Source: Burkholderiaceae bacterium
GTDB lineage: Bacteria > Pseudomonadota > Gammaproteobacteria > Burkholderiales > Burkholderiaceae
Direction: 5' to 3'
DNA: 36,965 nucleotides
Assembly: GCA_023266335.1 (NCBI GenBank)
Contig: JAHFQJ010000020.1
Location: 1-36,965, forward strand
Under the pieces are notes generated by a model that saw nothing but the letters and a program-made list of their open reading frames with translations, was not told where the DNA came from and made no database searches. A program made the translations under genes and the position numbers. Shown in pieces: positions 17,984-20,734 of the stretch; positions within the stretch are counted from its first letter, which is position 1, and each line of letters starts with the position of its first letter.

Positions 17984-18067
17984 AAATCGAATATGTTGTA
18001 TTTTTTCTGTCTAATTACATAAGCAATAAGTATAACAATACATATTGCTGTTAACAAAAAAGGATTC

Positions 18068-18382
18068 ATGATGAAAAAACAAAAATCAGCACTACTAACT
18101 TTATGCGGTATTGCTTGTATAGCCTGTTCAATTCAAATAGGAAATGCTGCCGAGGCAAGTGCAACTCAAGTAAGCAATGGATATGAAAACACGCAAAAAT
18201 CTGCTGATGGTAAATGTGCTTCAGGCTCATGCAGTGCCAATCAAAAATCTGCTGATGGTAAATGTGCTTCAGGCTCATGCAGTGCTAATAAAAAATCTGC
18301 TGATGGTAAATGTGCTTCAGGCTCATGCAGTGCTAATAAAAAATCTGCTGATGTTAAATCTTCTACGGCAAAACCTAACTAA
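18068..18382 (+). CDS. Exported small Cys-repeat protein, HvfA/bufferin-like candidate
   Basis: This 104-residue protein has a signal peptide (MMKKQKSALLTLCGIACIACSIQIGNAAEA, cut near residues 28-30). It then has three consecutive 16-residue repeats KSADGKCASGSCSAN(Q/K) at 44-59, 60-75 and 76-91, and a partial fourth (KSADVKS). Each repeat has two Cys four residues apart in GKCASGSC. Small exported proteins with repeated GKC-type motifs, such as HvfA and the bufferins, are modified by MNIO (DUF692) enzymes and bind copper; the resemblance here is in layout and motif only. No MNIO or DUF2063 gene is present in the window. An AAAAAGGA lies just before the paired ATGs (18068/18071). It stands alone between glnS and the convergent earP. 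Alternatives are a plain Cys-rich metal-binding or surface protein. Confidence 0.75.
   Translation: MMKKQKSALLTLCGIACIACSIQIGNAAEASATQVSNGYENTQKSADGKCASGSCSANQKSADGKCASGSCSANKKSADGKCASGSCSANKKSADVKSSTAKPN
18197..18340 (+). repeat. Three 48-bp tandem repeats inside the Cys-repeat gene
   Basis: Units 18197-18244, 18245-18292 and 18293-18340 are almost identical in DNA (differences at the last codons, CCAATC against CTAATA). A fourth, partial unit follows. Since 48 is a multiple of three, gain or loss of a unit keeps the frame. The near-identity at silent sites points to recent duplication or gene conversion. Confidence 0.9.
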
Positions 18383-20479: not shown

Positions 20480-20734
20480 CTAAGTTAAGAATACTTCTTT
20501 TTTATAATTTCTAGTGGGAGCAATAATTGAAGTTGGTTTAAGTTCCCTATTTTGTTCTACTATAGCATAAACTACTGCACTACACTGTTCTTTGCCGATG
20601 CTACCCTTGCAGGTTAGTTTCATTATAGACCCCGGCTCTCCCGTTGGATGCCCAGCAGAAGCACAATCCCTAGTGCATGTTACATATCCGCCAAAACTAA
20701 TGTTTATTGAATTATTCGACATCTTAACTACCAT
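20480..20734 (-). CDS. Small Cys-containing hypothetical protein
   Basis: I do not recognise this 84-residue protein. It has four Cys (in TCTRDCASAGHPTGEPGS, KLTCKGS and EQCSAVV), no signal peptide or membrane segment, and a mixed beta-like pattern. An AAGGA lies 5-6 nt before the first ATG, supporting translation from 20734; a second ATG follows four codons later. Codon use is less AT-biased than in its neighbours (for example GAGCCGGGGTCT-like codons in the middle), which may hint at strong selection or foreign origin. It is the first gene of the minus-strand run before the SpoU gene (56-nt gap). Confidence 0.55.
   Translation of the reverse strand: MVVKMSNNSINISFGGYVTCTRDCASAGHPTGEPGSIMKLTCKGSIGKEQCSAVVYAIVEQNRELKPTSIIAPTRNYKKEVFLT

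Follow-up and report, generated by a model that had tools for sequence, protein, structure and literature searches.

The stretch of DNA analysed here (the window, 36,965 nucleotides) carries a stand-alone gene, hvfA2, whose product, A2, is probably a divergent second precursor of the HvfA/captophorin (oxazolin) type, which would be modified in trans by an unlinked HvfB-HvfC pair to thiooxazole copper ligands and exported. A2 is homologous to A1, the product of the paralogue hvfA1 that stands beside hvfB in the same genome; HvfB, HvfC and HvfX are all encoded in that genome; and an MNIO gene is present at all 20 of the best-matching loci of the order. The features of hvfA2 are as follows.

18061..18064, forward strand: AGGA, likely ribosome-binding site, recognised by eye
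18068..18382, forward strand: hvfA2, stand-alone HvfA-type precursor gene of 104 amino acids, from the list of open reading frames; the start is possibly the second ATG at 18071
18068..18148, forward strand: signal-peptide-like N-terminus, residues 1-27, from hydropathy and a lipobox scan, with possible cleavage after G-N-A
18149..18196, forward strand: linker with VSNGYENTQ, which recalls the GY[QMLEIV] segment of MNIO-adjacent precursors
18197..18244, forward strand: unit 1, KSADGKCASGSCSANQ, from repeat analysis
18245..18292, forward strand: unit 2, KSADGKCASGSCSANK, from repeat analysis
18293..18340, forward strand: unit 3, KSADGKCASGSCSANK, DNA-identical to unit 2, from repeat analysis
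18341..18379, forward strand: degenerate unit 4, KSADVKSSTAKPN, with both Cys gone; it aligns with ADGKCSAAKC of A1

By eye, the second ATG is better spaced after the AGGA than the ATG at 18068. The N-terminus of A2 looks like a Sec signal peptide, with a start rich in K, a hydrophobic core that reaches a Kyte-Doolittle mean of 2.5 over its best 12 residues, and a possible G-N-A cleavage site seen by eye; a pattern scan of it found no PROSITE-type lipobox. A 48-nt direct repeat was detected in hvfA2, and the unit register is KSADGKCASGSCSAN[Q/K]. The preliminary description had reported three exact 16-residue units with C-x4-C spacing; the spacing is borne out, as is the identity of the units except for the last residue of unit 1, where 2 of 48 nucleotides differ from units 2 and 3 and give Q rather than K, and the fourth, degenerate unit had been overlooked. 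DGKC is kept in all three intact units. The Cys contexts are ADGKCAS and ASGSCSA, with Ala after the first Cys and Ser after the second; the residue before the second Cys is Ser, not Lys, and no Cys of A2 has Gly after it. NGYE is present in A2 and NPF is absent.

Upstream, hvfA2 adjoins what we take from its translation to be a glutaminyl-tRNA synthetase gene, and downstream a converging gene, presumably EarP-like, both of housekeeping look; from this layout of the flanking genes, hvfA2 looks monocistronic. A promoter scan of the window returned 4 promoter-like sites against 3.7 expected from shuffles, none of them on the forward strand upstream of hvfA2, and a terminator scan of the window found no terminator. 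Elsewhere in the window, on the reverse strand at 20480-20734, is an 84-amino-acid open reading frame with four Cys (TCTRDCASAG...LTCKGSIGKEQCSAVVYA), and the gene downstream of it is presumably TrmH-like.

The genome comprises 1.96 Mb in 40 contigs and is 99.93% complete. As had been stated in the preliminary description, the window (contig C28) contains no DUF692 or DUF2063 gene, and the whole-genome search that it had suggested found one of each elsewhere at E<=0.001. The DUF692 match (317.8 bits) is an HvfB-type MNIO by NCBIfam (363.6 bits, cut-off 360), and the DUF2063 match is HvfC by NCBIfam (199.8, cut-off 142). The genome also has one DoxX match, which belongs to the HvfX family (113.4, cut-off 80). 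These genes, all in the same genome as hvfA2, are distributed as follows.

L001 1438-2762, contig C24: hvfA1-hvfB, both genes on the same strand
L001 2331-2762: hvfA1, encoding A1 (143 amino acids), directly before hvfB and on the same strand
L001 1438-2313: hvfB, NCBIfam HvfB, on the same strand as hvfA1
L002 1468-2262, contig C6: hvfC, NCBIfam HvfC
L005 1276-1833, contig C9: hvfX, HvfX-family DoxX

Since there is only one MNIO match in the genome, the candidate enzyme for A2 is unambiguous, and in contrast to HvfA pathways A2 does not stand directly before the MNIO gene (window C28, MNIO C24). To find hvfB and hvfC apart is unusual: all 80 comparison loci, which are the best 80 of the 409 that HvfB similarity brought up, have an HvfC-like open reading frame after HvfB on the same strand, with anything from a 307 nt overlap to a 27 nt gap when the longest frames are taken. 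The nearer contig end is 37.8 kb away for hvfB, on a contig of 157.6 kb, and 30.2 kb away for hvfC, on one of 72.0 kb, so that a contig break between the two genes does not account for the split. The promoter scan of the hvfA1-hvfB locus gave 6 sites against 8.5 from shuffles, and no terminator was found there. Downstream of hvfB, at about 420-740 of L001, two near-copies of a ACTAATTGCAGTTCATTTTACGACGAAGCGGCAT... segment were seen by eye and may represent a dispersed repeat.

Judged from its sequence, A2 is an HvfA precursor by descent. When A2 was searched against its own genome, A1 (E 4.1e-14) was the sole other match at E<=1, with no third copy, and the two are 52% identical in a two-row alignment. 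The relationship extends beyond the repeats, which were excluded from a comparison of the N-termini of A2 and A1: their alignment score of 70 was reached by 0 of 2000 shuffles (mean 22.7), the highest score that the A2 N-terminus reached with any of 67 other precursors, taken over their first 60 residues, was 52, and a signal core of LCGIACI is common to A2 and A1. A1 contains four units of 17 residues that follow the pattern KAADGKCSAAKCSAEHK (ADGKC-AKC), with Cys contexts ADGKCSA and SAAKCSA (once SAAKCGA), Ser following 7 of its 8 Cys, and it has neither the GY segment nor NPF. That the degenerate fourth unit of A2 aligns with ADGKCSAAKC of A1 suggests that the SGSC variant probably arose after A1 and A2 split.

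Identification of A2 from curated models alone fails, as both NCBIfam scores (29.6 bits against NF050188, cut-off 95; 16.2 bits against NF050137, cut-off 19.5) and all seven of its Pfam rows are below cut-off, and none of the 7 Pfam rows at E<=10 is DUF2282. The NCBIfam HvfA cut-offs are strict. A Thioalkalivibrio precursor scoring 54.8 is also short of the 95-bit HvfA cut-off, and A1 is above the cut-off for KCGExKCG_twice (NF050137; 34.4 against 19.5) and below that for the HvfA equivalog (NF050188; 39.3 against 95). Moreover, of genomes chosen by their HvfB, 11 of 50 and 8 of 30 gave nothing with the HvfA domain model at E<=0.01. As A2 has neither scores above the curated cut-offs nor the gene position of the family, we file it as a divergent variant outside the formal definition of HvfA.

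Comparison with the HvfA/Buf_EGKCG-oxazolin/captophorin precursors (H. influenzae oxazolin, Fontimonas fontiphorin FonA, gonococcal gonophorin) shows where the divergence lies. A2 is like them in its signal-peptide-like N-terminus, its tandem two-Cys units, its C-x4-C spacing and its [DE]GKC motif, and its genome is like theirs in carrying the HvfB, HvfC and HvfX families. It differs in the SGSCS second Cys, in having Ala or Ser and not Gly after Cys, in the missing NPF, in the lack of MNIO adjacency, in its sub-cut-off NCBIfam scores, and in the length of its unit, which is 16 residues in A2 versus 17 in A1 and in these precursors as described in PMC12452194. Bufferins 1 and 2 (DUF2282, Buf_6/12Cys) are described in PMC12452194 as exported Cys-containing MNIO substrates, as is proposed for A2, which differs from them in having no DUF2282 row and in its Lys-Cys type repeats.

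Among 299 genomes of the family, in which the genus is represented by the own genome alone, A2 matched only its own genome at E<=0.001 and none of the 298 others. The HvfA domain model matched four of the 299: the own genome; G078, where the matches adjoin its MNIO; and G046 and G212, where weak matches lie on contigs other than that of the MNIO. The last two were not counted as precursors, because the frame in G212 lacks a signal-like start and no open reading frame of the G046 stretch carries two [GA]KC. In the order we searched 399 genomes (own included) with A2 alone, 108 of which matched at E<=0.1, inspected the loci down to E 3.8e-3 and scored the presence of an MNIO in a 3.1-3.3-kb stretch around each match. 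Every one of the 20 non-self loci with E<=1e-3 has an MNIO gene, as have 4 of the next nine (E 1e-3 to 3.8e-3). A profile of A1 and A2 matched 30 other genomes, with an MNIO at all 29 loci fetched, one of the 29 MNIO frames being interrupted by a contig end; this search overlaps with that of A2 alone, and the two are therefore not independent. A DUF692 gene is found both in the genome itself and at all 20 loci at E<=1e-3, contrary to the absence that the preliminary description had named as refuting, and its reading of A2 as an orphan precursor, which would be modified in trans, is therefore the best one available.

In a FastTree analysis of 117 HvfB sequences, the own HvfB grouped (support 0.916) with seven tips from six genomes of one family, f44, two of the tips (L130, L166) being one gene. 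This grouping may be a long-branch effect, the nearest tips by branch length being L009, L010 and L006 (1.53-1.56). NPF is absent also from the precursors of the f44 group. In L130, two tandem EGKCG precursors (1006-1410 and 1483-1848) precede a single MNIO; by eye, the first opens with LAGC, which resembles a lipobox, so that either of the two may be a lipoprotein.

Precursors apart from their enzymes are not peculiar to this genome. According to PMC12452194, sizeable shares of the Buf1 and Buf2 precursors are unlinked to MNIO genes, stand-alone precursor units exist, and of 2583 assembled genomes that have EGKCG precursors, 67 are without MNIO genes; it is held possible there that unlinked precursors are modified by an MNIO encoded elsewhere or that they are unmodified. 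A2 resembles these stand-alone bufferin/oxazolin precursors in being unlinked to an MNIO in a genome with MNIO and DUF2063 genes, which differs from theirs as described in PMC12452194 in that hvfB and hvfC are split as well. We examined HvfA matches on multiple contigs in four genomes (G322, G334, G313 and G336; left out were, for example, G360, in which a second precursor is present, G363, G370, G371, G374 and G376). In G313 and G336 an MNIO is beside each HvfA match, and in G322 and G334 the matches apart from any MNIO are real precursors. The first of these two genomes, a draft of Thioalkalivibrio sp. XN8 (L029/G322), has a single MNIO match with no precursor-like open reading frame just upstream, by a rule of distance and Cys content given below, and none with two GKC in its 10.8-kb MNIO locus; two further contigs carry HvfA-type precursors whose repeats are of the EGKCG kind (L098 1414-1752 and L124 495-803), and one of these precursors adjoins an HvfX-family gene. 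G334 has one MNIO match for both a precursor match beside it and an unlinked precursor. Operation in trans is plausible in other genomes such as that of Thioalkalivibrio sp. XN8. At L111 1279-1719, in a genome with one MNIO match, there is an unlinked EGKCG precursor whose tail, DNDGNGRIDREE, appeared EF-hand-like by eye.

Would the sites of A2 suit the HvfB of its own genome? We counted motifs in the 67 of 80 HvfB loci that have a precursor-like open reading frame (ending no more than 300 nt upstream, with at least 3 Cys), omitting the other 13. [DE]GKC occurs in 63 of these 67 MNIO-adjacent precursors, GSCSA in 20, GKCA in 3, DGKCA in 2, GY[QMLEIV] in 65 and NPF in 64. The preliminary description had proposed a new subtype, which holds in so far as, among the 186 loci compared, the window's own alone showed the ADGKCASGSCSA unit (DGKCASGSC); it is weakened by the occurrence of [DE]GKC and GSCSA in MNIO-adjacent precursors and by the full modification of DGKCG by FonBC (PMC13097082). 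The DGKCSAAKC of A1 is similarly confined to own-genome loci among the 186. In the double-variant panel of FonBC, Ala is the sole replacement tolerated for Gly after Cys, and Ser after the second Cys of A2 would therefore be poor for FonBC; before Cys, Ala, Arg and Thr are tolerated and Phe and Glu rejected, and an LVHCY substrate (Cys-Tyr) is modified once (PMC13097082).

In FonB, modelling places Phe250 close to the residues that flank Cys (PMC13097082), a position that we mapped through the homologue structure 3BWW and the text of that paper, not through the FonB sequence. The sequence here is LERDF in 3BWW and LERDL in the own HvfB, with Leu for Phe. Sorted by this residue, the share of Cys-Ser sites in the 67 precursor-bearing loci is 4/150 for Phe, 20/37 for Leu, 47/73 for Asn, 38/70 for Thr, 8/19 for Ile, 3/74 for Ser and 1/11 for Val, a correlation that is loose and confounded by the relatedness of the loci. 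The Leu of the own HvfB, taken with these counts, suggests that the enzyme probably accepts Cys-Ser sites, and its linked substrate A1 in itself implies as much.

These residues bear directly on two other accounts of A2. In the first, A2 is of HvfA descent and now unmodified, an exported plain-thiol peptide of metallothionein-like character whose six Cys would bind copper, zinc or other soft metals. Its separation from the enzymes, its scores below both HvfA cut-offs, the Ser instead of Lys before its second Cys and its lack of Cys-Gly would suit such a peptide, and PMC12452194 allows for unmodified unlinked precursors. However, GSCSA in 20 of 67 MNIO-adjacent precursors, Ser after 7 of the 8 Cys of A1, the intact DGKC of three A2 units and the MNIO at 20 of 20 order loci (E<=1e-3) all argue for modification, and we regard a plain-thiol A2 as unlikely. 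In the second account, the Cys of DGKCA would become thiooxazole and that of SGSCS would stay a thiol, giving a mixed ligand set. The tolerance of the FonBC panel for Ala alone in place of Gly (PMC13097082) speaks for such an outcome in units with Cys-Ala and then Cys-Ser, but the own HvfB has Leu for the Phe of 3BWW, and Cys-Ser sites are far commoner with Leu (20/37) than with Phe (4/150), and we regard partial modification as quite improbable. That A2 is a decaying duplicate of hvfA1 without function is very improbable, for although its fourth unit is degenerate and it has no match in 298 other family genomes (E<=0.001), its reading frame is intact, with a likely ribosome-binding site and a signal-like N-terminus, and two of its three intact units are DNA-identical, as in a recently expanded array.

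Several points count against A2 as an HvfA-type precursor modified in trans, namely that there is no MNIO beside it, that its scores are below cut-off, that NPF is absent, that its fourth unit is without Cys, that Ser after its second Cys would be poor for FonBC, that it has no match in 298 family genomes (E<=0.001), and that an MNIO is present at just 4 of 9 order loci beyond E 1e-3. The course of events that we infer, from modification in trans and its chemistry to export, copper binding and the role of A2, would be the following. A2 would be made in the cytoplasm, where HvfC, the DUF2063 protein encoded on another contig, would help HvfB to engage the precursor. HvfB would then turn the Cys of each unit into 5-thiooxazole, an oxidation that would remove 4 H per Cys and draw on the carbonyl of the preceding residue. 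Sec would export the modified A2, which would chelate Cu(I) either in the periplasm or outside the cell, probably as a protection against excess copper.

A further proposal, which we put forward tentatively and consider possible but doubtful, is that hvfA1-hvfB, hvfC, hvfX and the lone hvfA2, on four contigs, form a dispersed captophorin pathway where two substrates of differing site chemistry share a single HvfB-HvfC, and that A2, with its KCA and SCS sites, gives rise to a metallophore differing from that of A1 in loading, metal preference or regulation. If this were true, two precursors would divide labour under one trans-acting MNIO. Stand-alone precursors are already known from PMC12452194; A2 is unusual in its repeat and in the scatter of its pathway. 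With one MNIO, one HvfC, a linked precursor and an unlinked one, the genome offers a clean test of the remark on unlinked precursors in PMC12452194. In addition, A1 and A2 are a natural pair of substrates for the question of which residues an HvfB accepts around Cys, including the part played by the position of FonB Phe250.
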